Origin: Stenotrophomonas maltophilia
GTDB lineage: Bacteria; Pseudomonadota; Gammaproteobacteria; Xanthomonadales; Xanthomonadaceae
Length of the DNA: 64,000 nt
Direction of reading: 5' to 3'
Assembly (NCBI RefSeq): GCF_006970445.1
Contig: NZ_CP033877.1
Location: forward strand, 3,170,750 to 3,234,749
Position numbers and translations under genes: made by a program. Positions 8,128 to 38,984 of this stretch are shown piece by piece (within the stretch, counting starts at the first letter, position 1; every line of letters begins with the position of its first letter). The notes beneath the pieces were generated by a model. It did no database searches. It was not told the origin of the DNA and saw nothing but the letters and a program-made list of their open reading frames with translations.

Positions 8128-10917
8128 ATGAAACACTTCAGCAATACCGCACGTCGCAACACGCTCACCGTCGCCCTGATTTCCGCTCTGATGGCTGCCG
8201 CTCCGGCAATGGCCCAGGACAAGGCGACCAACCTGGACAAGATCACCGTCACCGGTTCGCTGATCCCGCAGACCCAGGTTGAAACCCAGACCCCGGTGAT
8301 GTCCATCACCGCAGAAGACATCCAGACCCGCGGCTTCAGCAGTGTTGCTGAAGTGCTGCAGCAGTCGTCGCTGACCACCGGCGGCCTGCAGGGTGGCCAG
8401 ACCTCGGGTTCGTTCACCCAGGGCGCCGAAGCGGCCGGCATGTTCGGCCTGAACCCGGGCTACACCAAGTACCTGATCAACGGCCGCCCGATGCTCTCGT
8501 ATCCGGCGCTGTACAACGGCAGCGAGTCGTTCAACAACATCAGCGGCATCCCGATCGACATCGTCGAGCGCATCGAAGTCCTGCCGGGCGGCCAGTCGTC
8601 GCTGTACGGCTCGGACGCGATCGCCGGCGTGGTCAACATCATCCTGAAGGAACGCATGGACGGCGGCACGATGTCGATCCGTGGCGGCACCTACACCGAA
8701 GGTGGTGGCAGCAACATCCGCTTCAGCGCCGCCAAGGGCTTCAACGCGTTCGACGATCGCTTCCACGCGCTGGTCAACGTGCAGATCGAAAACGGCAGCC
8801 CGATCTGGGGCTACCAGCGTGACATCACCAAGCAGAACAACCCGGTCGGTTACACCGCGCAGCTGCCGTCGAACGACTTTGCCGTCATCGGCAACGCCGA
8901 CAACAAGCTGTACATGATGGACCCGACCCGCTGCGGCAACGTGGCAGGCCTGTACGACGGCACCACCACCGTCGGCAAGCGTCCCTCGGGCGAGTCCTGC
9001 GGCTCGGTGTACAGCGCCGGCTACAAGACCCTGAAGAACGGCAAGAACAGCGGCCAGTTCTACTCGTCGATGACCTTCGACGTGAACGACAACTTCCAGC
9101 TGTTCGCCGACGTGCTGTACAGCAAGGAAAAGACCGAGTTCACCTCCGGCTCCAGCGCCCTGTGGTGGGGCACCAAGTCGGTGATGGGCGGCTTCTACGA
9201 CCAGGGCCTGGGCAAGGTCGTGAACCTGCAGCGCGCCTTCGCGCCGGAAGAAATCGGTCCGGGCCACTACAACAACATCCTGAACTCCGATGAGAGCCGT
9301 TCCTACCAGGTCACCCTGGGCGGCAAGGGCATGGTCGGCGACTGGGACTACAGCGCCAGCTTCACCCGCGGCGAGTACCGCCTGGACCAGAACCGCTTCG
9401 CGCGCTGGAAGGACAAGATCGAAGGCTTCTTCGGCGACACCGTGCTGGGCCCGCGCCTGGGCACCACCGCTGATGGCTTCGGCATCTACAACCCGAACTA
9501 CACCGCCTTCTACTCGCCGATCACTCCGGACCAGTTCGCCAGCTTCACCGGCTATGGCACCCACCGCAGCAAGACCTGGCAGAACCTGGGTCGCGTGCAG
9601 GTGACCAACGGTTCGCTGTTCTCCCTGCCGGGCGGCGACGCCGGCCTGGCCGTCGTGCTGGAAGGCGGCAGCGAAGGTTGGGACTACTCGCCCGACCAGG
9701 CCTTCATCGATGGCAACGCCTGGGGCGCCAGCGCCGTGGCCGGTGCCGGCCACCGCAGCAACTACGCGGTGACCAGCGAACTGCGCATGCCGGTGTTCGA
9801 GTCGCTGACCATCAGCGCCTCGGGCCGCTATGACGCGTTCAAGATCGCCGACAAGACCGTCGACAAGGCCACCTACAGCATCGGCCTGGAATACCGTCCG
9901 GTTGAAAGCCTGCTGCTACGCGGCAAGTACGGCACCGCGTTCCGCGCGCCGACCCTGTCCGATGCCTTCCAGGGCATGAGCGGCTCGTTCGCCTCCGGCC
10001 AGAACGACTACTACCGCTGCAGCCAGATGGGTTACGCGCTGCGTGACGAAGCCTGCTCGTTCTACAAGACCACCTCGGTGTACAGCGAAAAGTCCGGCAA
10101 CCCGGACCTGAAGCCGATCACCGCCGACGTGTGGAGCGCAGGCGTAGTGTGGGCCCCGGTGAGCAACTTCTCGCTGTCGGTCGACTACTACAACTGGAAG
10201 ATCAAGAACGAGGTCAAGACCCTGAGCACCGACCAGCTGCTGCTGGCCGAGTACCAGTGCCACAACGGCCTGCCGAACAACACCTCGGCCAGCTGCCAGA
10301 ACGTGACCGACTGGGTGACCCGCGACGCCGGTGGCAACCTGACCCGCGTGTACACCCCGAAGCTCAACGTGGCCAGCCAGAACCTGGAAGCGGTGACCGT
10401 CGGTGCCAAGTACCAGCAGGATCTGGGCCGCTTCGGTTCGCTGATGTTCTCCGGCAACTACACCAACATGCTGAAGCGTGAAGTGGTGGCCCTGCCGGGT
10501 GCGCAGAAGCTGGACCTGCTGAGCGATCCGTACAACATGTGGTACTACGACAACTTCGCCAAGGTCCGCGGCGACGTGTCGGTGGGCTGGGCCATCTCCA
10601 AGTTCACCACCACCGTGTACGCCAACTACGTCGGCAGCACCCCGAACTACCTGGCCTACACCGGCCGCAGCTATGACTACGTCCACTCCTCCGGCGCCAA
10701 GGCCGGCAAGTGGGGCTCGTACACCACGTACAACATGAGCCTGAACTACCAGGCGCAGGACGATCTGACCCTGTCGCTGATGGTCAACAACGTGTTCAAC
10801 AAGCTGCCGGAAGGCCAGCGCTACAACTACCCGGGCAACGAATCGACCCCGTTCAACGATGGCTTCTACAGCGTCTACGGCCGTCAGATTTCGGCCCAGG
10901 TCAAGTACGACTTCTAA
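8128..10917 (+). CDS. TonB-dependent outer membrane receptor (paralogue 1)
   Basis: 929 residues. Start MKHFSNTARRNTLTVALISA gives a good Sec signal peptide with cleavage after AMAQ; a longer in-frame reading from 7987 would bury it. The plug follows with ITVTGSLIPQTQVET, EDIQTRGF and the YGSDAIAGVVNIILK motif, then a 22-strand barrel ending in a C-terminal Phe (QVKYDF), as outer membrane proteins require. It is closely similar to the next gene over nearly its full length, so the two arose by duplication. The ligand is unknown; the lack of a nearby siderophore system and the presence of peptidases suggests an organic nutrient rather than iron, but this is inference. Confidence 0.93.
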   Translation: MKHFSNTARRNTLTVALISALMAAAPAMAQDKATNLDKITVTGSLIPQTQVETQTPVMSITAEDIQTRGFSSVAEVLQQSSLTTGGLQGGQTSGSFTQGAEAAGMFGLNPGYTKYLINGRPMLSYPALYNGSESFNNISGIPIDIVERIEVLPGGQSSLYGSDAIAGVVNIILKERMDGGTMSIRGGTYTEGGGSNIRFSAAKGFNAFDDRFHALVNVQIENGSPIWGYQRDITKQNNPVGYTAQLPSNDFAVIGNADNKLYMMDPTRCGNVAGLYDGTTTVGKRPSGESCGSVYSAGYKTLKNGKNSGQFYSSMTFDVNDNFQLFADVLYSKEKTEFTSGSSALWWGTKSVMGGFYDQGLGKVVNLQRAFAPEEIGPGHYNNILNSDESRSYQVTLGGKGMVGDWDYSASFTRGEYRLDQNRFARWKDKIEGFFGDTVLGPRLGTTADGFGIYNPNYTAFYSPITPDQFASFTGYGTHRSKTWQNLGRVQVTNGSLFSLPGGDAGLAVVLEGGSEGWDYSPDQAFIDGNAWGASAVAGAGHRSNYAVTSELRMPVFESLTISASGRYDAFKIADKTVDKATYSIGLEYRPVESLLLRGKYGTAFRAPTLSDAFQGMSGSFASGQNDYYRCSQMGYALRDEACSFYKTTSVYSEKSGNPDLKPITADVWSAGVVWAPVSNFSLSVDYYNWKIKNEVKTLSTDQLLLAEYQCHNGLPNNTSASCQNVTDWVTRDAGGNLTRVYTPKLNVASQNLEAVTVGAKYQQDLGRFGSLMFSGNYTNMLKREVVALPGAQKLDLLSDPYNMWYYDNFAKVRGDVSVGWAISKFTTTVYANYVGSTPNYLAYTGRSYDYVHSSGAKAGKWGSYTTYNMSLNYQAQDDLTLSLMVNNVFNKLPEGQRYNYPGNESTPFNDGFYSVYGRQISAQVKYDF

Positions 10918-11327: not shown

Positions 11328-14135
11328 ATGTCTCGCCAACGTTCCACGCTCTCGCGCCACCCTCTGACCCTCGCCCTGCTCGGCACCCTCCTGGCCTCCG
11401 GCACCGCCCTGGCCCAGGACGGCAATGCGCCGACCCAGCTTGACCGTGTGACCGTCACCGGATCGCTGATTCCGCAGACCGAGATCGAGAACCACACGCC
11501 GGTCCTGACCGTCACCGCCGAGGATATCCAGACCCGCGGTTTCACCAGTGTCGCCGACGTCCTGCAGCAGTCCTCGCTGTCCACTGGCGGCCTGCAGGGC
11601 GGCCAGACCTCCGCATCCTTCACCCAGGGCGCCGAAGCGGCCGGCATGTTCGGCCTCAGCCCGGGCTACACCAAGTACCTGATCAACGGCCGCCCGATGC
11701 TCTCGTATCCGGCGCTGTACAACGGCGGCGATACCTTCAACAACATCAGCGGCATCCCGATCGACATCGTCGAGCGCATCGAGATCCTACCGGGCGGCCA
11801 GTCCTCGCTGTACGGTTCGGACGCGATCGCCGGCGTGGTCAACATCATCCTCAAGGAGCGCATGGATGGCGGCGTGCTGAACGTGCGTGGTGGCGCCTAC
11901 AGCGAAGGTGGCGGCAACAGCTTCCGCCTCAGCGGCGCACGCGGCTTCAACTCGAAGGACGACCGCTTCCATGCCCTGGTCAACGTGCAGTATGAGAAGA
12001 CCAGCCCGATCTGGGGTTACCAGCGCGACCTGACCAAGGTCAACAATCCCGACGGCTACAGCCCGCAGTACGTCTCCAATGATTTCCTGGTGCTGCTGCC
12101 GGCCGCCAACAACCGCTACGCGATGATGGACCCGAACCTGTGCGCCAACGTGGCGGGCCAGTTCGACGGCACCACCGTGCTCGGCACCCGGCCGACCGGC
12201 CAGGCCTGCGGTTCGGTCTACGGCACCGGTTACAAGACCATCAAGAACGGCAAGGAAAGCGGGCAGATCTACAGCTCGGCCACCTTCGACGTGAACGACA
12301 ACTTCCAGCTGTTCGGCGACGCGCTGTACAGCCTGGAGGAGGTCAAGTACGCAACCGGTTCCGGCTACACCTGGTGGGGCACCTCCTCCGGCTGGGGCCG
12401 CTTCTACGACCAGGCCAGCGGCCAGTACATGAACCTGCAGCGCGTGTTCGCGCCAGAGGACATCGGCGGCGGTGGCTACCGCGACATCATGAACACCGAC
12501 CGCAACAAGGCCTACCAGGTCACCCTCGGCGGCCGCGGCACCGCAGGCAACTGGGACTACAGCCTCAGCTTCACCCGCGGCGAGTACAAGCTGACCGAGC
12601 GCAACTTCGTGCGCTGGAACGACCCGATCAACGATTACTTCGAGCAGCGCGTGCTGGGCCCGGTACTGGGCACCACCAGCACCGGCTACGACATCTACAA
12701 CCCGAACTGGGAAGCGTTCTACGCGCCGCTGCCCGCCGGCGACTTCCAGAGCTTCACCGGCTACAGCTACAGCGAAAGCCGCACCTGGCAGAACCTGGCC
12801 CGTGCCCAGGTCACCAACAGCTCGCTGTTCAAGCTGCCCGGTGGCGATGCCGGCTTCGCCGTGGTTGTCGAAGGTGGCAGCGAAGGCTGGGATTACACGC
12901 CCGACCCGGGCCTGATGGACGGCAGCGTGTGGGGCACCACCGCCGTGTCCGGTGCAGGCCATCGCAGCAACTACGCGGTGACCACCGAACTGCGCATGCC
13001 GCTGCTGGAAACGCTGACCGTTACCGGTTCCGGCCGCTATGACGCCTTCAAGATCGGCAGCAACACCGTCGACAAGGCCACCTACAGCGTCGGCATCGAG
13101 TTCCGTCCGATCGAAAGCCTGTTGTTCCGCGGCAAGTACGGCACCGCCTTCCGCGCACCGACCCTCTCCGATGCCTTCCAGGGTCGCAGTGGTTACTACG
13201 CCAACGGCTCCACCGACTACTACCGCTGCGGCCAGCTGGGCTACGACCCGGCCAACACCACCGGCTGCCCGTACGACAGCGTCTCGGTGTTCGGCACCCG
13301 CTCGGGCAACCCCGACCTGGAGCCGATTACCGCCGATGTCTGGAATGCAGGCGTGGTGTGGGCACCGATCAACAACCTGTCGCTGTCAGTCGACTACTAC
13401 AACTGGAAGATCAAGAACGAGGTCGATACGCTCAGCTCCGACCAGCTGCTGCTGGCCGAGTACTACTGCCGCAACGGCCAGTCCAACAACACCTCGGCCA
13501 GCTGCCAGAACGTCAGTGACTGGATCACCCGTGATGCATCGGGCGTGCTCGACGAGATCTACACGCCGAAGATGAACGTCGCCCGCCAGAACCTGGAAGC
13601 GCTGACCGCCAGCTTCAAGTACGTGCAGGACATCGGCCGCTTCGGTTCGCTGCAGTTCTCGGCCAACTACACCGACATGCTCAAGCGCAAGCTGCAGCCG
13701 CAGCCGGGCGACGAGTTCCTGGACCTGCTGCACGACCCGTATGCGATGTGGGTGTACGACTCGTACGCCAAGGTGCGCGCGGACGGCTCGATCGGCTGGG
13801 CCAAGGACAACTGGACCACCACCCTGTATGCCAACTACATCGGCAAGACGCCGAACTACATGGCGTACGTGGGCAACGGCTATGACTACGTGCACAGCTC
13901 CGGCTACAAGGCTGGCAAGTGGGGTTCCTACACCACCTACAACCTGAGCGTGAACTACCGCGCGATGGAAAACCTGACCCTGTCGCTGATGGTCAACAAC
14001 GTGTTCAACAAGATGCCGGACAACCAGCGCTACAGCTTCGCCGGCACCAGCGGCCAGCCGTACAACAACTACCTGTACAACGCCTACGGGCGCGCGATCT
14101 ACGTGCAGGCCAAGTACGCGTTCGGCGTGAAGTAA
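11328..14135 (+). CDS. TonB-dependent outer membrane receptor (paralogue 2)
   Basis: 935 residues. Signal peptide MSRQRSTLSRHPLTLALLGT with cleavage after ALAQ; plug begins with VTVTGSLIPQTEIE and contains YGSDAIAGVVNIILKERMDG, identical to paralogue 1. Whole blocks are shared with the gene at 8128 (for example TKYLINGRPMLSYPALYNG), while loops differ (CGQLGYDPANTTGC against CSQMGYALRDEAC), as expected for receptors that keep the fold but may differ in ligand. Each has its own terminator and leader, so they can be regulated separately. The C-terminus (YAFGVK) extends a few residues past the usual terminal aromatic residue. Confidence 0.92.
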   Translation: MSRQRSTLSRHPLTLALLGTLLASGTALAQDGNAPTQLDRVTVTGSLIPQTEIENHTPVLTVTAEDIQTRGFTSVADVLQQSSLSTGGLQGGQTSASFTQGAEAAGMFGLSPGYTKYLINGRPMLSYPALYNGGDTFNNISGIPIDIVERIEILPGGQSSLYGSDAIAGVVNIILKERMDGGVLNVRGGAYSEGGGNSFRLSGARGFNSKDDRFHALVNVQYEKTSPIWGYQRDLTKVNNPDGYSPQYVSNDFLVLLPAANNRYAMMDPNLCANVAGQFDGTTVLGTRPTGQACGSVYGTGYKTIKNGKESGQIYSSATFDVNDNFQLFGDALYSLEEVKYATGSGYTWWGTSSGWGRFYDQASGQYMNLQRVFAPEDIGGGGYRDIMNTDRNKAYQVTLGGRGTAGNWDYSLSFTRGEYKLTERNFVRWNDPINDYFEQRVLGPVLGTTSTGYDIYNPNWEAFYAPLPAGDFQSFTGYSYSESRTWQNLARAQVTNSSLFKLPGGDAGFAVVVEGGSEGWDYTPDPGLMDGSVWGTTAVSGAGHRSNYAVTTELRMPLLETLTVTGSGRYDAFKIGSNTVDKATYSVGIEFRPIESLLFRGKYGTAFRAPTLSDAFQGRSGYYANGSTDYYRCGQLGYDPANTTGCPYDSVSVFGTRSGNPDLEPITADVWNAGVVWAPINNLSLSVDYYNWKIKNEVDTLSSDQLLLAEYYCRNGQSNNTSASCQNVSDWITRDASGVLDEIYTPKMNVARQNLEALTASFKYVQDIGRFGSLQFSANYTDMLKRKLQPQPGDEFLDLLHDPYAMWVYDSYAKVRADGSIGWAKDNWTTTLYANYIGKTPNYMAYVGNGYDYVHSSGYKAGKWGSYTTYNLSVNYRAMENLTLSLMVNNVFNKMPDNQRYSFAGTSGQPYNNYLYNAYGRAIYVQAKYAFGVK

Positions 14136-22480: not shown

Positions 22481-22975
22481 ATGGCACACAAGAACACGAT
22501 CTGTATCTGGTACGACAACGGCGCGCTCGAGGCCGCCACCTTCTATGCCAGCCTCCTGCCCGACAGCGCAGTAGCTGCCGTACATCACGCACCGGGTGAC
22601 TACCCCGACGGCAAGGAAGGCAACGTCCTGACGGTCGAATTCACCGTCTGCGGCATCCCCTGCGTCGGCCTCAATGGCGGCACCGCGTTCAAGCACAGCG
22701 AAGCCTTCTCCTTCCAGATCCAGACCGAGGACCAGGCCGAGACCGATCGCCTGTGGGATGCGATCGTGGGCAATGGCGGACAGGAAAGCCAATGCGGCTG
22801 GTGCAAGGACCGCTGGGGCATCTCCTGGCAGATCAGCCCACGCATGCTGATCGAAGCGGTGACCAGCCAGGACAAGGCCCTGGCCAAGCGTGCCTTCAAC
22901 GCGATGATGCCGATGAAGAAGATCGACATCGCCACCATCGAAGCGGCAATCAAAAAAGGGGACGGAGGGGATTAA
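22481..22975 (+). CDS. VOC family protein (PhnB / 3-demethylubiquinone-methyltransferase-like fold)
   Basis: 164 residues from ATG at 22481 (MAHKNTICIWYDNGALEAAT). Features of the PF06983 group are visible: YDNGALEAATFYASLLPDS, GLNGGTAFKHSEAFSFQI and CGWCKDRWGISWQI. Despite the old family name these are vicinal-oxygen-chelate-fold proteins whose substrates are mostly unknown. The last seven codons (KKGDGGD) and the stop lie inside the left arm of a perfect inverted repeat (22952-23040), so the natural C-terminus was replaced or extended when the repeat arose. The gene is otherwise full length for the family. Confidence 0.87.
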   Translation: MAHKNTICIWYDNGALEAATFYASLLPDSAVAAVHHAPGDYPDGKEGNVLTVEFTVCGIPCVGLNGGTAFKHSEAFSFQIQTEDQAETDRLWDAIVGNGGQESQCGWCKDRWGISWQISPRMLIEAVTSQDKALAKRAFNAMMPMKKIDIATIEAAIKKGDGGD

Positions 22976-23040
22976 GTCGTTTCTCCCCACCCCTGCGCTC
23001 AGATGCGAATTGCGACTTAATCCCCTCCGTCCCCTTTTTT
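22952..23040. repeat. Perfect 28-bp inverted repeat (REP-like), between VOC gene and oxidoreductase
   Basis: Arms at 22952-22979 and 23013-23040 are exact reverse complements, with a 33-base loop. The left arm starts AAAAAAGGGGACGGAGGGG. On the plus strand the right arm ends in TTTTTT, so it can also act as a terminator. The left arm encodes the end of the VOC protein and the right arm ends ten bases before the next ATG. The pattern resembles repeats mobilised by REP-associated transposases, but none is in this window. Confidence 0.9.
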
Positions 23041-26762: not shown

Positions 26763-26876
26763 CAGGACGACGGCGGGCCGCATGGGGCGGCTGGAAGGAA
26801 TCAGATTGCTTCCAATTGTCTCACGGCTCTTCCGGACGGACGATCCAACTTCCGTTCACGCTCACCGCCACTTCGG

Positions 26877-26924
26877 ATCCACGCATGGCGTGGATCTACC
26901 GTATCGACCCAGGTCGACACCTAC
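26877..26924 (-). repeat. Two SMAG palindromes (GTAG on minus strand)
   Basis: ATCCACGC-ATG-GCGTGGAT followed by CTAC (26877-26899), then a TCGACC/GGTCGA hairpin also followed by CTAC (26902-26924). Read on the minus strand each begins GTAG. Confidence 0.8.
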
Positions 26925-26948
26925 CAACAGCTGTAGGAAGCCGTCGAA

Positions 26949-27192
26949 GGCGGGGCACTGTGGGATTGCGGGGTGTGAGCCGCATGGGCCCGAGGCATGC
27001 CTCGGGCGGGTTGGGCAGGACGCCCAACCCCGGTATTGCCGTGTGCGCAGGACTGCGCACACGAGCAAGCGGCGACCAAGCCCCCCAGGGACGGGTTCAC
27101 GGCGGCCCCGCAAGCCCACAGTGCCCCGCCATCCCGCGGAATGCCACTGTTGCTCTCGATGTTGCCTCTGCGGGTGCCGGGCGCAGCCCGGC
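26949..27192 (+). repeat. Large structured intergenic element, copy A
   Basis: Outer arms 26949-26973 and 27106-27130 pair over 24 of 25 positions. Inside are the core word GTGAGCCGCATGG, then three perfect hairpins: a 20-base palindrome at 26988-27007, a 9-bp stem with loop AGGAC at 27008-27030, and a 10-bp stem with loop GGAC at 27040-27063. These are followed by GCGGCGACCAAGC and ACGGGTTCACGGCG. A tail with GTTGC words ends in hairpin GCCGGGC-GCA-GCCCGGC (27176-27192), directly adjacent to the gor stop codon. Same family as 37162-37341 and 37495-37675. Confidence 0.8.
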
Positions 27193-28551
27193 TCAGCGCA
27201 TCAGCACCACTTCCTCGGCCGAGGTCGGATGGATCGCCACGGTGTCGTCGAACTGGGCCTTGGTCGCGCCCATCTTCACCGCCACCGCGAAGCCCTGCAG
27301 GATCTCGTCGGCCGCTTCGCCCAGCAGGTGGATACCGACTACCCGTTCTTCCGGGCCGGCACAGACCATCTTGAACAGGCTGCGCTGGGTACCGTTGGCC
27401 AGGGCCTGCAGCATCGGACGGAAACGGCTGTGGTAAACGCTGACCTGGTCGAAACGTGCACGTGCTTCTTCCTCGCTCATGCCCACCGCGCCCAGCGGCG
27501 GATGCGAGAACACCACGCTGGCCACGTTCTCGTAATCCATCTTCGATTGCGGGCGACCACCGAACAGGCGGTCCATCAGCCGCCGCGAAGCCGCCACCGC
27601 CACCGGAGTCAGGCCGACCTTGCCAGCGATGTCACCCACCGCGTGCACGCTCGGCACAGAGGTGGTCTGCCATTCGTCCACCTGCACCTGCTGGTGCTCG
27701 CCAATGCCGATGCCGAGCGCTTCCAGACCCAGGTCACGGCTGTTGCCGCGGCGGCCGGTGGCAAAGAACACTGCGTCGAACACATTGTCGAGCGGGCCGT
27801 CATGGCCGAACGCACGCACGCGCTCGCCATCGCGCTGCAGTTCGCGCAGGCGGTAGTCGAAATGGATGCGCACGCCCTGCTGCTTCAGGTTCTCGGCCAG
27901 CTGGTCGGTCAGCTCGTAGTCGAAGCGCTCCAGCAGACGCTTGCCGCGTACCAGCAGGCTCACCTTGCTGCCCAGCGCCTGCAGCAACCCGGCCAGTTCC
28001 ACCGCGATGTAACCACCACCAATGATCGCCACCTCGGCCGGTGCCGCACGCAGATCGAAGAAATCATCGGAGACCAGGCCCAGTTCGGCACCGGGAATGT
28101 CGGGCCGCAGCGGGTGCGCGCCGGTGGCGATCAGGATGTGCTCGGCGCTGTAGCGCACACCATCGCTGCAGGCCACGGTGTGCGCATCGAGCAGGTGGCC
28201 GCGAGCCGGAATGCGCACCACGCCGGTTTCATCCAGGCGCTTGTGGTAGCTGGTGTGGATGTTGCTGATGTAGGCCTGGCGATGGATCACCAGCTCCTTC
28301 CACGACAGCGCCGGACGGGCCTCGACGTCGAAGCCCATCGCATTGGCCAGGCCGATGCGCTCGTGCAGGTCGGCCGCCAGCCACATCGCCTTCTTCGGCA
28401 CGCAGCCGACATTGACACAGGTTCCGCCCAGCTCACCGGGCTCCAGCATTGCCACGCGCTTGCCGTGCTGCGCGGCGCGGATCGCGCCGGCCAGGCCGGC
28501 GGAGCCGCCACCAAGGACGATCAGGTCGTAATCATAGGATGCAGTGCTCAT
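27193..28551 (-). CDS. gor: Glutathione-disulfide reductase
   Basis: 452 residues starting MSTASYDYDL; the ORF extends far upstream in frame but that is the antisense-rich dadA region. FAD-binding LGGGSAGLAGAIRAA, redox-active disulfide Cys45-Cys50 in GGTCVNVGCVPKK, NADPH-binding IIGGGYIAVELAGL, and the C-terminal HPTSAEE with the catalytic His441-Glu446 pair. It reduces oxidised glutathione with NADPH in the cytosol. The start overlaps the dadA-like stop (ATGA), so it is the last gene of a three-gene operon DUF418-dadA-gor. The hairpin directly after the stop is part of element A and may end the transcript. Confidence 0.96.
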   Translation of the reverse strand: MSTASYDYDLIVLGGGSAGLAGAIRAAQHGKRVAMLEPGELGGTCVNVGCVPKKAMWLAADLHERIGLANAMGFDVEARPALSWKELVIHRQAYISNIHTSYHKRLDETGVVRIPARGHLLDAHTVACSDGVRYSAEHILIATGAHPLRPDIPGAELGLVSDDFFDLRAAPAEVAIIGGGYIAVELAGLLQALGSKVSLLVRGKRLLERFDYELTDQLAENLKQQGVRIHFDYRLRELQRDGERVRAFGHDGPLDNVFDAVFFATGRRGNSRDLGLEALGIGIGEHQQVQVDEWQTTSVPSVHAVGDIAGKVGLTPVAVAASRRLMDRLFGGRPQSKMDYENVASVVFSHPPLGAVGMSEEEARARFDQVSVYHSRFRPMLQALANGTQRSLFKMVCAGPEERVVGIHLLGEAADEILQGFAVAVKMGATKAQFDDTVAIHPTSAEEVVLMR

Positions 28552-34904: not shown

Positions 34905-36611
34905 ATGCGCCGTTCCGTCTCCCTGTTGGCCGCCTGCGCCACCACCCTGCTGCTGGGCGCCTGCGCCAGCACCCGCCCCGCGTCCGCCCCGGCCGGCCTG
35001 AAGGTCGCCGTCGATCCCGTCGCCCACCCGGCCGGCGAGACCCCGCAGTGGTGGTACCGCAGCGGCGCCGCCCAGGCCGCCGCCAACGGTGCGATGTCCG
35101 GTAAGGCCAAGAACGTCATCCTGTTCCTCGGCGACGGCATGAGCCTGACCACCGTGGCCGCCTCGCGCATCTACGAAGGCCAGCAGAAGGGTGGCTCGGG
35201 CGAAGAGAACCTGCTGTCCTGGGAGCGCTTCCCGGCCACGGCGTTCAGCAAGACCTACAACACCGATTCGCAGACCCCGGATTCGGCCGGCACCATGACC
35301 GCCATCACCACCGGCGTGAAGACCCACATGGGCGCAATCGGCGTCAGCGCCGGCAGCCGCACCGACTGCGCCGACAGCCTGTCCAAGGGCCTGCTGACCT
35401 GGCTGCAACTGGCCGACAGCGCCGGCCTGGCCACCGGCGTGGTCTCCACCGCGCGCCTGACCCATGCCACCCCGGCCGCCACCTATGCGCACTCGCCCGA
35501 GCGCAACTGGGAAAACGATACCGACCTGACTGAAGCCGCCAAGGCTGCAGGCTGCAAGGACATCGCCCAGCAGCTGCTGTCGACCTCGCGCTATGGGCGC
35601 GGCCCGCTGGTCGCCCTCGGCGGCGGTCGCGGTGAATTCACCACCGTGGAAGAGCGCGATCCGGAATACGACGACAAGGTCGGCCAGCGCCTGGATGGCC
35701 GCAGCCTGGTGCAGGAATGGCAGCAGGCGCACCCGCAGGGTGCCTACGTATGGAACAGCAAGCAGCTGGCCGCCGCCGCAAATGCGCCGGCCATCCTCGG
35801 CCTGTTCGAGCCGGACCACATGCGCTACGAGTACGAGCGCCCGCAGGATCCGGGCGGTGAGCCGAGCCTGGCCGAACTGACGGCCGCAGCGATCAAGAAT
35901 CTGTCGAAGCACCAGGAAGGCTACGTGCTGATGATCGAAGGCGCGCGCATCGACCACGCCAACCACAGCGGCAACGCCTACCGTGCACTGACCGAGACCG
36001 TGGCGCTGTCCGACGCGGTACGCGTGGCCAACGAACTGACCTCGGCCGACGACACCCTGATCATCGTCACCGCCGACCACTCGCACACGCTGAACTTCGT
36101 CGGCTACCCGGCACGTGGCAACCCGATCCTGGGCAAGGTGAAGGACAAGGGCGGCGAAGACGGCGCCGGCAAGCTGGATTACGCGCTGGATGGCACCGGC
36201 CAGCCGTACACCACGCTGAGCTACGCCAACGGCCCGGGCCATACCGGCAGCAGCAACCAGCAGCCGGCCGGCCCGAAGCGTTACCCGCACAACCCGAGCA
36301 GCTTCGAACCGGCCAACGGCCGCCCGAACCTGCGCGAAGTCGACACCGAGCATCCGGACTACATGCAGGAAGCACTGGTGCCGATGAAGGCCGAGTCGCA
36401 CGGCGGCGAAGACGTCGGTATCTGGGCACGCGGCCCGGGCAGCAAGGCGATCCGCGGCACGCTGGAACAGAACGCGATCTACCACATGATCGTGCAGGCC
36501 ACCCCGGCCCTGCGCGAGCGCCTGTGCCAGGCCGGCACCTGCGACGACAAGGGCGTGCCGGTGCAGCTGCCGGCACCGACGGCTTTCGAGCGCAAGGCCG
36601 AGGCCAAGTGA
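34905..36611 (+). CDS. Alkaline phosphatase, lipoprotein
   Basis: 568 residues from ATG at 34905. Lipobox LLLGAC (Cys20) marks it as a lipoprotein. The PF00245 fold is clear: metal ligand Asp77 in LFLGDGMSL, nucleophile Ser127 in TPDSAGTMTAITTGVKT, then the metal-binding region IEGARIDHANHSGN, and ADHSHTLNF. It hydrolyses phosphomonoesters in the periplasm or at the cell surface to supply phosphate. The architecture resembles the PhoA/animal alkaline phosphatase class rather than PhoX or PhoD. A CATAAT hexamer at 34864 could be its -10. The stop overlaps the next gene start (GTGA). Confidence 0.93.
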   Translation: MRRSVSLLAACATTLLLGACASTRPASAPAGLKVAVDPVAHPAGETPQWWYRSGAAQAAANGAMSGKAKNVILFLGDGMSLTTVAASRIYEGQQKGGSGEENLLSWERFPATAFSKTYNTDSQTPDSAGTMTAITTGVKTHMGAIGVSAGSRTDCADSLSKGLLTWLQLADSAGLATGVVSTARLTHATPAATYAHSPERNWENDTDLTEAAKAAGCKDIAQQLLSTSRYGRGPLVALGGGRGEFTTVEERDPEYDDKVGQRLDGRSLVQEWQQAHPQGAYVWNSKQLAAAANAPAILGLFEPDHMRYEYERPQDPGGEPSLAELTAAAIKNLSKHQEGYVLMIEGARIDHANHSGNAYRALTETVALSDAVRVANELTSADDTLIIVTADHSHTLNFVGYPARGNPILGKVKDKGGEDGAGKLDYALDGTGQPYTTLSYANGPGHTGSSNQQPAGPKRYPHNPSSFEPANGRPNLREVDTEHPDYMQEALVPMKAESHGGEDVGIWARGPGSKAIRGTLEQNAIYHMIVQATPALRERLCQAGTCDDKGVPVQLPAPTAFERKAEAK

Positions 36612-37153
36612 TCGTGAGGCAGGCCCGCGCTGCCCCTGCCAGCGGCCGCTTCGCGCGGTCGCTGGCCCTGCTCGGCGTGCTGGCCAGTTCCAGCGCGCTG
36701 GCGCAGGCACCGGCGTGCAAGCTGCTGACCGACGAACACGGGTTGTGGCCGCTGCCCAACTGCGAGGTGGTCGATCATCGGCCGAAGATCAGCGCCGACA
36801 CGCTGAAGGACCTGAACTACGACGACCACGGCCTGGCCGTGGTGTACGCCGACCAGGGCTTCCACTACGTCGACCGCAAGGGCCGGAGCCTGCCCGTGCT
36901 GACCTGGGACAACGGCCCGGAAACGCCACAGGAAGGTCTGCTGCGCGGCCGCGTCGGCAATCGCGTCGGCTACTTCGACCTGAAGTTCCGCCAGGTGGTG
37001 CCCGGCACCTTCGATTTCGGGTGGCCGTTCCAGGATGGCGTGGCCGAGGTCTGCAATGGTTGCCGTCGCGGTACGCCGGATGCCGATGGCCACACGCCGA
37101 TGGAAGGCGGAGAGCGGTTCCGGATCGACCGCTCGGGCCGTCGGGTGAAGTAG
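36608..37153 (+). CDS. WG-repeat-like exported protein
   Basis: 181 residues if begun at the GTG (36608) that overlaps the phosphatase stop; a GTG at 36614 is also possible. A signal peptide follows (FARSLALLGVLASSSALAQA). The mature part has repeats of the WG type (GLAVVYADQGFHYVDRKG; NRVGYFDLKFRQVVPGTFDF; GWPFQDGVAEV), about 35 residues each, which build a beta structure of unknown function. It also has the Cys pair CNGC. Tight overlap with the phosphatase suggests joint expression, perhaps an accessory protein. Structure element C begins nine bases after the stop. Confidence 0.78.
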   Translation: MIVRQARAAPASGRFARSLALLGVLASSSALAQAPACKLLTDEHGLWPLPNCEVVDHRPKISADTLKDLNYDDHGLAVVYADQGFHYVDRKGRSLPVLTWDNGPETPQEGLLRGRVGNRVGYFDLKFRQVVPGTFDFGWPFQDGVAEVCNGCRRGTPDADGHTPMEGGERFRIDRSGRRVK

Positions 37154-37161
37154 TTTTTTCG

Positions 37162-37341
37162 GCAGGGCTGCGCCCTGCACCTGCTACAAGCCAGAGCAAC
37201 AGCAACAGCCAAAGCGGCTCTGGATTTCCGTTGGTTGGGCGGGGCGGTGTGGGTGGGCAGGACACGCCGTAAACCCGTCCATGGGGGCTCGATGGCGCCA
37301 TCCATGGCGCCAACGGTCCTGCCCACCCACACCGCCCCACC
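37162..37341 (-). repeat. Large structured intergenic element, copy C (reverse orientation)
   Basis: On the plus strand: tail hairpin GCAGGGC-TGC-GCCCTGC (37162-37178) right after the preceding gene, a stretch with AGCAACAGCAACAGC, then perfect 23-bp arms at 37241-37263 and 37316-37338. The inner core, read on the minus strand, has GGCGCC-ATGGAT-GGCGCC and then GAGCCCCCATGGACGGGTTTACGGCG. The arm sequence differs from copies A and B, yet pairing is perfect. Confidence 0.8.
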
Positions 37342-37370
37342 ACCGACAGATTTCCGGTGACGGTTGGACC

Positions 37371-37389
37371 ATCCACGCTTTGCGTGGAT
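37371..37389. repeat. Degenerate SMAG hairpin
   Basis: ATCCACGC-TTT-GCGTGGAT; the flanking GTAG/CTAC is lost. Confidence 0.65.
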
Positions 37390-37417
37390 CACATCTGTCA
37401 GATATCGAATTGAATCC

Positions 37418-37458
37418 GGGGTCAGATCCGTTTTCCGCAGGAAAACGGATCTGACCCC
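37418..37458. repeat. Perfect 19-bp palindrome of the GGGGTCAGA class
   Basis: Arms 37418-37436 (starting GGGGTCAGATCC) and 37440-37458 with a 3-base loop. It resembles palindromes linked to REP-associated tyrosine transposases (RAYT); no such gene is in the window. Confidence 0.85.
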
Positions 37459-37494
37459 ATCAACATGCCCGACAGCTCGCAGGAAACTGTCGAA

Positions 37495-37675
37495 GGCGGG
37501 GTGGGTCCGGTTGCGGGGGCGTGAGCCGCATGGATGCGGCGACCGAGCTTACATGGATGTACTTGCAGCGCCCCCCGCAACCGGACCCACCCCGCCCCCC
37601 TCAGGAAACCCGCTTCTGCTGTTGCTTCGGCCGTTGCCGTTGCTGCGCGTCTGCGGGTGCAGGGCGCAGCCCTGC
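37495..37675 (+). repeat. Large structured intergenic element, copy B
   Basis: Perfect 25-bp arms at 37495-37519 and 37572-37596. Core: GTGAGCCGCATGGATGCGGC (7-bp hairpin), GACCGAGC, then TACATGGATGTA (second hairpin). A tail with GTTGC words ends in GCAGGGC-GCA-GCCCTGC (37659-37675), just left of tilS. Copies B and C face each other and with the repeats between them fill all of 37154-37697, which has no gene. Confidence 0.8.
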
Positions 37676-37697
37676 CGAGCAACCCTATACTTGCCCC

Positions 37698-38984
37698 GTG
37701 ACTGCCTTCCCTGCCCTCGTTCCGCTGGATGCGCCACTGCTGGTGGGCTACAGCGGCGGTGTCGACTCGACCGTGCTGCTACACTGGCTGTGGCGCTGCG
37801 CCCAGGCTTCCGGCACCGCGCTGCGTGCGGTGCACGTACACCATGGCCTGCAACCCGATGCGGACGGCTGGGTGCTGCATTGCCAGCAGCAATGCGCAGC
37901 ACTGGGCATCGAACTGGCCGAGCATCGCGTGCAGGTCGACAAGCGCGCGGGCCTCGGCCTTGAAGGCGCGGCGCGGCAGGCACGACGTGCAGCGTTCGCC
38001 GCCGAACTGCGCGACGGCGAAACATTGGCACTGGCGCAGCACCAGGACGATCAGGCCGAGACCTTCCTGCTGCGGGCCCTGCGCGGATCCGGCGTCGATG
38101 GCCTTGCCGCGATGTCCGTACACAGCCGCCTTGGCGAACAGCCTCTATGGCGGCCGCTGCTGGCGGTGCCACGCAGTGCACTGCTCGACTACGCGAACCA
38201 GCACGCGCTGCGCTGGATCGAAGACCCCAGCAATGGCGACGACCACGCCGATCGCAACTTCCTGCGCCTGCAGGTGCTGCCGTTGCTGCGCCAGCGCTGG
38301 CCGCATGCCGCTGCGGCGCTGGCGGGCAGCGCGATGCACTGCGGGCAGACCCGCGAACTGCTGGACGAGGAAGACGCCGAGCTGATCGCGCACCTGGAAG
38401 TGGCACCGCGCGTGCTGTCGCTGCAGCTGCTGCGCCAGGTGTCACCGGGGCGTGCCGCGCGCGTGCTGCGCGCCTGGGTGATCGGCCACGGTGCGGCGCC
38501 ACTGCCGGCCACGGTGCTGCAGCAGGGTCTGGACGAACTGCTGCCGGCCGGCAACGATCGCCAGGCGCGGGTGCGCTGGCACGATCACGCCATCCAGCAG
38601 TGGCGCGAGCATGCCTATCTGCTGCCCGCACAGCTGCCGGCGCTGCCCCGCGGATGGCAGGCCGACTGGGATGGGCATGCCCCCCTGCTGCTGCCCGATG
38701 GCGGCCAACTGCGCCTGCAGGGCACCGTGGCCTTCGAACGCCCACTCCAGGTCCGTGCACGCGTAGGCGGTGAGCGCATCCTGCTGCCCGGCCGCCAGCA
38801 TTCGCATGCGCTGAAGGACTGCCTGCAACGCGAACACCTTGCCCCCTGGCGGCGCGCCCAGCTGCCGCTGGTCTTCGATGGGCCACAGTTGCTCGCCGCC
38901 GCCGACGTGGTCATCGCGGCCCCTCTGCAAGCCTGGTTGCAGGCCCATGATGCCCAGCTGCAATGGCGTCCCGGCGGCTGGTGA
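37698..38984 (+). CDS. tilS: tRNA(Ile)-lysidine synthetase
   Basis: 428 residues from GTG at 37698. The ATP-pyrophosphatase P-loop SGGVDS (19-24) is close to the N-terminus as in the family; HVHHGLQPDADGW and the LAQHQDDQAETFLLRALRGSG block follow, with linker and C-terminal tRNA-binding domains (LPGRQHSHALKDCLQ). It changes C34 of tRNA-Ile2 to lysidine so that AUA codons are read correctly; the function is essential. A TATACT hexamer at 37686-37691 sits so close to the GTG that the transcript may be nearly leaderless. xseB and ispA follow on the same strand. Confidence 0.95.
   Translation: MTAFPALVPLDAPLLVGYSGGVDSTVLLHWLWRCAQASGTALRAVHVHHGLQPDADGWVLHCQQQCAALGIELAEHRVQVDKRAGLGLEGAARQARRAAFAAELRDGETLALAQHQDDQAETFLLRALRGSGVDGLAAMSVHSRLGEQPLWRPLLAVPRSALLDYANQHALRWIEDPSNGDDHADRNFLRLQVLPLLRQRWPHAAAALAGSAMHCGQTRELLDEEDAELIAHLEVAPRVLSLQLLRQVSPGRAARVLRAWVIGHGAAPLPATVLQQGLDELLPAGNDRQARVRWHDHAIQQWREHAYLLPAQLPALPRGWQADWDGHAPLLLPDGGQLRLQGTVAFERPLQVRARVGGERILLPGRQHSHALKDCLQREHLAPWRRAQLPLVFDGPQLLAAADVVIAAPLQAWLQAHDAQLQWRPGGW

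Follow-up and report, generated by a model that had tools for sequence, protein, structure and literature searches.

What keeps the long arms of two neighbouring palindromes paired when their sequences differ, and what would the paired structure do? This question is raised by a locus in Stenotrophomonas maltophilia (assembly GCF_006970445.1, contig NZ_CP033877.1) within the 64,000-nt stretch of DNA analysed here, hereafter the window. The original prediction had described three copies (A, B and C) with differing but perfectly pairing arms and had suggested a 3′ untranslated structure acting as an RNA regulator, an mRNA stabiliser or a mobile element that targets gene ends. We resolved copies C and B as two inverted units of ~205 nt each, with heads facing and tails outward, that share from head to tail a ~25-bp stem, two short hairpins at the stem tip and then a tail hairpin. 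Profile search placed the left unit (the earlier copy C) at 37161–37364 on the minus strand and the right unit (the earlier copy B) at 37472–37676 on the plus strand, with covariance-model matches at 37231–37343 minus (113.6 bits) and 37493–37603 plus (121.8 bits), respectively. The right-unit 5′ arm at 37495–37519 (25 nt, 100%) pairs 25/25 with the 3′ arm at 37572–37596 as had been claimed for copy B, and the 26-nt left-unit 3′ arm at 37238–37263 agrees at 96% with its 5′ arm at 37316–37341, the 23/23 pairs claimed for copy C being the inner pairs that precede one mismatch and two more pairs. Stem sequence thus differs between the units and pairing is near-perfect in both. Hairpin 1 is GGCGCC-AUGGAU-GGCGCC in the left unit (37294–37311 minus) and GCCGC-AUGGAU-GCGGC in the right unit (37525–37540 plus), each with a GGA unpaired probability of 1.0; hairpin 2 is CCC-AUGGAC-GGG (37274–37285 minus; 0.98–1.0) and UAC-AUGGAU-GUA (37550–37561 plus; 0.87–0.99), and the two GGAs are spaced 23 nt apart in left and right unit alike. 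The tail hairpin GCAGGGC/GCCCTGC occupies 37162–37178 (minus) and 37659–37675 (plus) and, as predicted, covaries with GCCGGGC/GCCCGGC at 27176–27192 (plus) in copy A. The predicted core pattern CCNAGC...ACGG survived in part, since the right copy has CAGCG at the expected ACGG and the left copy has TCGAGC in place of CCNAGC. Both units fold more stably than their shuffled sequences (right z = -6.3, left z = -7.7; 0/200 shuffles equally stable in each case).

The predicted plus-strand gene at 36608–37153 has its 3′ end 8 nt from the left unit, and the right tail hairpin is followed after ~22 nt by the predicted start of a further gene, which we take to be tilS. Between the two heads is a spacer of ~107 nt (37365–37471) that contains a hairpin at 37418–37458 (GGGGTCAGATCCGTTTTCC/GGAAAACGGATCTGACCCC), and similar sequence adjoins units at loci L043 and L152. 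We considered additional GGA sites (a third or fourth) in the unit flanks and dropped them: GGA counts there exceed those of shuffles, yet TCC is also common, and in the left unit most of the flanking GGAs are paired.

The element is abundant in its own genome. A blastn search with the window pair returned 130 matching pieces, and a covariance model built from 55 own-genome units (R1) found at least 134 places at E ≤ 0.001 among 150 scored candidates and, on the fetched places, at least 141 units after opposite-strand echoes of the palindrome had been set aside; overlapping opposite-strand matches were likewise removed from the profile search because a palindrome matches on both strands. These 141 units occupy 90 places as 51 pairs and 39 singles, the count of singles being a maximum (in L012 the sequence profile alone revealed a second, interrupted unit, and L104 has a weak partner), and all 51 pairs share one geometry, minus-then-plus, in which the heads face each other and the tails point outward. 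Among the 131 units without a long insert, the motif ANGGAN is present in loop 1 of 129, loop 2 of 127 (126 if the closing bases are also required) and both loops of 126, counts that leave out the 10 units with inserts. The loops are nearly always closed by C-G, and their second position varies beyond Y to include T, G and A. In a separate observation, a TTGCTG/TTGCCG run of variable number lies between the long stem and the tail hairpin in L009–L047 and is a possible length-variable typing marker.

Compensatory change, claimed from three copies, proved extensive in larger sets. RNAalifold analysis of 55 own units gave 38 pairs, of which 25 carry double-sided changes. A diverse alignment (A4) comprises 40 units from 21 gammaproteobacterial genomes, nine units being own and the remaining 31 coming from 20 further genomes; of its 1502 cells 98.4% pair, the stems change almost completely with double-sided changes in 34/38 pairs, and GGA is present in both loops of 40/40 units. 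Its covariation score of 0.902 compares with 0.189 for shuffled alignments and at most 0.12 for slid partners, and 0/500 shuffles reach 0.902; A4 and A5 were fitted to the model's structure, and their pair counts lean towards it. Alignments A1 and A6 were made by MAFFT, and RNAalifold derived their structures from those rows. A6 started from 83 distinct Pseudomonas-type units; a distance cut left 27, from which nine with broken or shifted arms were removed by eye. The 18 MAFFT-aligned units from Pseudomonas and kin pair at 94.3%, with covariation of 0.426 versus 0.184. The short hairpins show compensatory change as well. Related copies are not independent, and p-values throughout are a guide only.

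The same alignments indicate which strand folds. On the GGA strand, G-U outnumbers A-C by 35 to 5 in the 55 units (20 to 5 without the dominant column), 24 to 7 in the 40 units and 87 to 14 in the 127 units; a structure on the opposite strand would show A-C, and the GGA strand is therefore the one that folds. As far as sequence can speak to function, the proposal of an RNA regulator draws support from the conserved ANGGAN loops together with this strand bias for G-U pairs. The pattern of change also bears on whether the core encodes a conserved short peptide, which we consider highly improbable. By eye, an ATG and an open frame do run through several cores, but the sequence changes follow base pairing, copies lie on both strands between genes, and the GGA motifs, being 23 nt apart, fall in different codon phases; we therefore set the coding reading aside.

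A more substantial alternative places the palindrome at the level of DNA, as a mobile or amplifying repeat of MITE- or REP-like type whose hairpins serve a transposase or repair and whose long perfect arms persist because each arm templates correction of the other, and not through selection on RNA. We judge this account rather unlikely. It would fit the at least 141 copies in one genome, the outward tail hairpins at both ends of 51 pairs, and arms whose sequence changes entirely from genus to genus, which neutral correction would permit; against it, the near-invariant part of the unit is the two loops and not the ends, compensatory change extends to the short hairpins, and G-U exceeds A-C on one strand. 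Comparison with relatives cuts both ways. Among 20 relatives of the genus compared at the site of the window pair, 12 carry both units at the same place (L075–L080, L082–L084, L087–L089), which speaks against mobility; the contigs L081 and L085 end inside the element, L086 gave one weak match, and five (L090–L094) have no units at this site, L094 having units elsewhere. At the site of copy A, of 10 relatives in which both flanks could be located, nine are without the element and the tenth, L084, has an allelic one with two inserts, as a mobile repeat would predict, but no clean insertion target was found among these 10 relatives and the whole intergenic stretch is exchanged. Neither the window pair nor a Pseudomonas unit had a blastn match among 72,556 plasmid and 50,697 phage records, which also speaks against a mobile repeat.

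Beyond these sites the element recurs across the class. At least one match occurs in 28/37 genomes of a genus sample (own genome included) and none in nine; R1 matches 44/274 genomes of a class sample, in 39 of 221 genera; and a further model, R2, matches 19/299 genomes of a phylum sample whose share of genomes outside the class is not shown, all 19 belonging to the same class. Twelve chosen genomes carry from 9 to at least 150 R2 copies each. Arms of distant copies differ in sequence and still pair, and some copies, for example L147, have by eye outer arms beyond the core. A pattern built around the Pseudomonas form of loop 1 matched at least 80 loci, mostly titled Pseudomonas, and loop 2, which this pattern left free, reads C-ANGGA(T/C)-G in 85/86 Pseudomonas copies among the matches listed, the other containing an N. 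Copies can be dense: in Pseudomonas sp. Bc-h, four core copies lie within ~1.1 kb (L192 4838–5971), two of them 69 bases apart. A search of the open-licence literature for core sequence strings found no paper.

Known dispersed repeats of these bacteria resemble the units in placement and differ in form. The SMAG or GTAG-type REPs of S. maltophilia are also dispersed intergenic palindromes, but the available portion of their description gives GTAG-tagged palindromes of 20–40 bp (PMC3733652), whereas the window units are ~205 nt long with two constant loops and lack a GTAG end. Sequences ending in CTAC (GGTCGACACCTAC, GGCGTGGATCTAC) abut many unit heads at a near-constant place (window 26875–26925, L009–L047), and a second copy of this head-adjoining type (GCCGGCCAGCGGCCGGCACTAC) occurs in some unit tails. 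We presume that these CTAC-ending sequences at heads and tails are SMAG-like. The R0–R200 repeats of P. fluorescens are dispersed, in many cases hairpin-forming and biased to gene tails, and differ from the unit core in size and inverted-repeat length in the sections of the source available (PMC2718517); on the same partial text, R200 (320 bp) could contain the Pseudomonas version of the unit. Two other repeats in the window were recorded on their own account. A perfect inverted repeat of 28 nt (AAAAAAGGGGACGGAGGGGATTAAGTCG), its arms separated by 33 nt, lies at 22952–23040, where the gene predicted at 22481–22975 has its 3′ end, and resembles a further family of dispersed repeats; two copies of a 21-nt repeat, spaced 195 bases apart, occur at each of 8385–8600 and 11591–11806 in the neighbouring long predicted genes 8128–10917 and 11328–14135, which probably encode paralogous proteins.

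Copy A is a single unit at 26926–27192 on the plus strand (covariance-model match 26947–27137, 72.2 bits) and departs from the pair in a respect that qualifies the original prediction: the ATGGAT core loops described as common to the copies do not hold here, as hairpin 1 is broken by an insert of ~84 nt after CATGG (26985–27068, plus). The insert itself is predicted to form two hairpins with CAGGAC loops, the GGA of which has an unpaired probability of 1.0, so that in copy A the lost ANGGAN loop appears to be replaced. Inserts occur in 10 own-genome units at the identical point of one loop, after CANGG, in loop 1 in three units (copy A included) and loop 2 in seven, and the loop-1 insert of copy A occurs seven times genome-wide. 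A second insert of ~80 nt (GTGAGGGCGCTTTGCTTGCGAAGCAC...) lies in loop 2 after CANGG in L026, L014, L039, L136, L142 and L143, and in shorter form in L135. Nested elements seem to target the hairpin loops.

Many unit tails lie close to gene ends. With genes called by a codon model of our own making, for which the window served as training set and whose starts are rough, we measured the distance from recognised tail hairpins to the facing gene, leaving out 51/141 units without one. Where the tail faces a gene 3′ end, the stop is 1–17 nt away in 50/56 cases; where it faces a 5′ end, 0/34 lie within 1–17 nt. The claim that the tails of A and C adjoin a gene's 3′ end was borne out, with the copy A tail hairpin abutting the stop of the minus-strand gene predicted at 27193–28551 and the left unit 8 nt from its neighbour, and the broader idea of placement at gene ends applies to the 50/56 tails facing stops and not to the 34 measured tails that face gene starts. 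Convergent genes flank 18/51 pairs, compared with 7/48 adjacent window gene pairs (p = 0.02, small baseline), and own-genome units are found in every gene context, divergent genes included. These distances and the excess of convergent flanks would suit a transcript-end element, in which tail hairpin and long stem act as a barrier to 3′ exonucleases or to read-through, with the loops playing no part. We hold this to be improbable: it leaves the conservation of the loops unexplained, the gene whose stop faces the tail reads the nearest unit antisense, and a simple consensus scan of 37000–37800 found two terminator-like sites, neither at the unit ends nor at the tail hairpins. The 31 distant-genome units are also of mixed placement, between called genes that are convergent in 10, divergent in six and co-directional in 13, with two units lacking one called neighbour.

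The original prediction knew of no described family with this architecture, and here a described relative did emerge, although its Rfam model misses the window copies. TwoAYGGAY RNA (RF01731) has a long closing stem and two hairpins, each with a terminal loop of A-Y-GGA-Y type. At gathering thresholds Rfam found only a tRNA in the window, and RF01731 gave no match in 37100–37720 up to E 5. Permissive Rfam scans returned microRNA precursor and other hairpin families, all far below cut-off, and we put these matches down to the long stem. On the genome of the window RF01731 gave none in one run and in a second run a best score of 36.6 bits, at one place that is a unit, and the window copies thus fall below the gathering threshold of 43 bits. 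In 34 stretches from relatives, RF01731 passes gathering at 11 places (five in 20 stretches, six in 14), none of them in the 12 non-Pseudomonas stretches of the first 20. Among the 274 class genomes it matches 17, 13 over cut-off, and only three genomes are common to these 17 and the 44 matched by R1; in genomes G474, G394 and G390, assigned to Pseudomonas through their resemblance to named loci, the matches of RF01731 and R2 share coordinates. At L168 1530–1614, a C4 antisense RNA (RF01695, 74.1 bits) lies ~400 bases from a TwoAYGGAY unit.

We also used a third model, R3, of 18 units from Pseudomonas and kin (two from one genome and 16 from titled loci, one of these Stutzerimonas), of which 7/18 pass RF01731 gathering themselves. 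On 17 of the 90 own-genome places, which contain 31 R1 units, R3 gave 31 matches, and 28 of these overlay R1 units in register by coordinates; the right window unit was recovered with E 2.7e-10. The other three matches are the left window unit, aligned out of register with its hairpin 1 on the model's hairpin 2, part of the interrupted L014 unit, and L096 634–785, which is not a unit; copy A gave no match. On distant loci R3 found 22/28 at E ≤ 0.01. The window units thus share with TwoAYGGAY RNA two AYGGAY-type hairpin loops in both left and right units (with Y at position 2 relaxed genome-wide), the placement of both hairpins within one longer stem and, through R3, homology to accepted members. 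They differ in scoring below the Rfam cut-off, in a loop position 2 that extends beyond Y, in numbering over 140 copies, in the shorter hairpin 2 and the 3′ UUYAC stretch, and in the head-to-head pairs with outward tail hairpins. Because R3 recovers own-genome units that RF01731 misses, we treat the window element, by sequence and structure, as a divergent and amplified branch of TwoAYGGAY RNA that lies outside Rfam membership as set by the gathering score. Rfam files TwoAYGGAY as Cis-reg; Weinberg 2010, in the part of the paper available, considers it probably RNA and probably not cis-regulatory, from human gut, gamma-Proteobacteria and Clostridiales (PMC2864571), and the accessible text of Gardner and Eldai (2014) predicts it to bind CsrA (PMC4333381).

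This kinship frames the reading that we favour with moderate confidence, namely that the units encode a TwoAYGGAY-like structured RNA and that unit-bearing transcripts bind and titrate RsmA/CsrA. The reading starts from what is shown here (the fold and its compensatory conservation, the folding strand, the near-invariant loops, the copy number, the head-to-head pairs and the kinship with RF01731) and joins to it CsrA-type loops, the 23-nt GGA spacing, the dimeric nature of CsrA and a pull-down with Rsm proteins; transcription in the loop-bearing sense, binding and titration are inferred steps. As excerpted, published work gives the CsrA/RsmA consensus as RUACARGGAUGU, in hairpin loops (PMC7937890), uses ANGGA as the CsrA/RsmA motif (PMC9788540), and describes CsrA as a dimer with two sites (PMC4333381). 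Right-unit hairpin 2 with its preceding base agrees with this consensus at 10/12 positions, and the units present unpaired GGA hairpin loops in pairs; against the reading, the loops often have U where the consensus has R, the left hairpin 2 stem is off consensus, and the GG of copy A hairpin 2 is predicted to be mostly paired. Passages on P. putida report, among the RNAs recovered in pull-downs with all three of RsmA, RsmE and RsmI, intergenic sequences next to ISPpu8 copies and a 'long palindromic region' (PMC7937890), and this palindromic region may be a candidate copy of the window element. A csrA gene is present in the same genome (one PF02599 match, E 1.9e-25). Across genomes, csrA is found in 40/44 with the element and 195/230 others, with no significant link (p = 0.35); the element genomes without a csrA match are G068, G129 and G160, each below 90% complete, and G255, listed at 98%.

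Under the titration reading, the transcript of a neighbouring gene would run through the unit in the loop-bearing sense, one RsmA/CsrA dimer would clamp both loops of a unit, and the ~140 dispersed units would jointly serve as decoys and so buffer the level of free RsmA; a single unit may, in addition, decide what becomes of the transcript end on which it sits. Head-to-head pairing would mean that read-through, whichever side it comes from, meets exactly one unit in the binding sense. The antisense reading of the nearest unit by the gene whose stop faces the tail, in which the loops are not GGA, counts against this proposal, as do the occurrence of units in every gene context and the finding of no promoter-like sites in 37000–37800 by simple consensus scan at this one place. 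On that scan, the units at this place show no match to the own promoter and terminator of an RsmZ/CsrB-type small-RNA gene. RsmZ, RsmY and CsrB likewise carry GGA in hairpin loops with paired sites, and as the portions available describe them they are small-RNA genes with several GGA loops (PMC4333381, PMC7937890), whereas the window units have two loops each and are many and dispersed. Another parallel, in a related bacterium, is RsmU of Xanthomonas, an RsmA-sequestering RNA cut from a 3′-UTR; the available text describes one locus and mentions no palindromic repeat (PMC7694677), in contrast to the dispersed window units.

More tentatively, and with doubt outweighing belief, many gammaproteobacterial chromosomes may carry self-amplifying CsrA/RsmA decoys of dozens to more than 100 two-loop units that lie between genes and jointly determine the cell's level of free CsrA, with copy number as a heritable dial on the Csr regulon and, in genomes such as the present one, head-to-head pairs guaranteeing a binding-competent unit for read-through in both directions. 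The function of TwoAYGGAY RNA is a prediction in the literature as available to us, and starting from the window we reached a much broader and more numerous branch that escapes the Rfam model. Strand-specific covariation, near-invariant CsrA-type loops and the P. putida pull-down make this function directly testable. If the units do act as decoys, buffering of CsrA would be spread genome-wide and not set by one or a few small-RNA genes.
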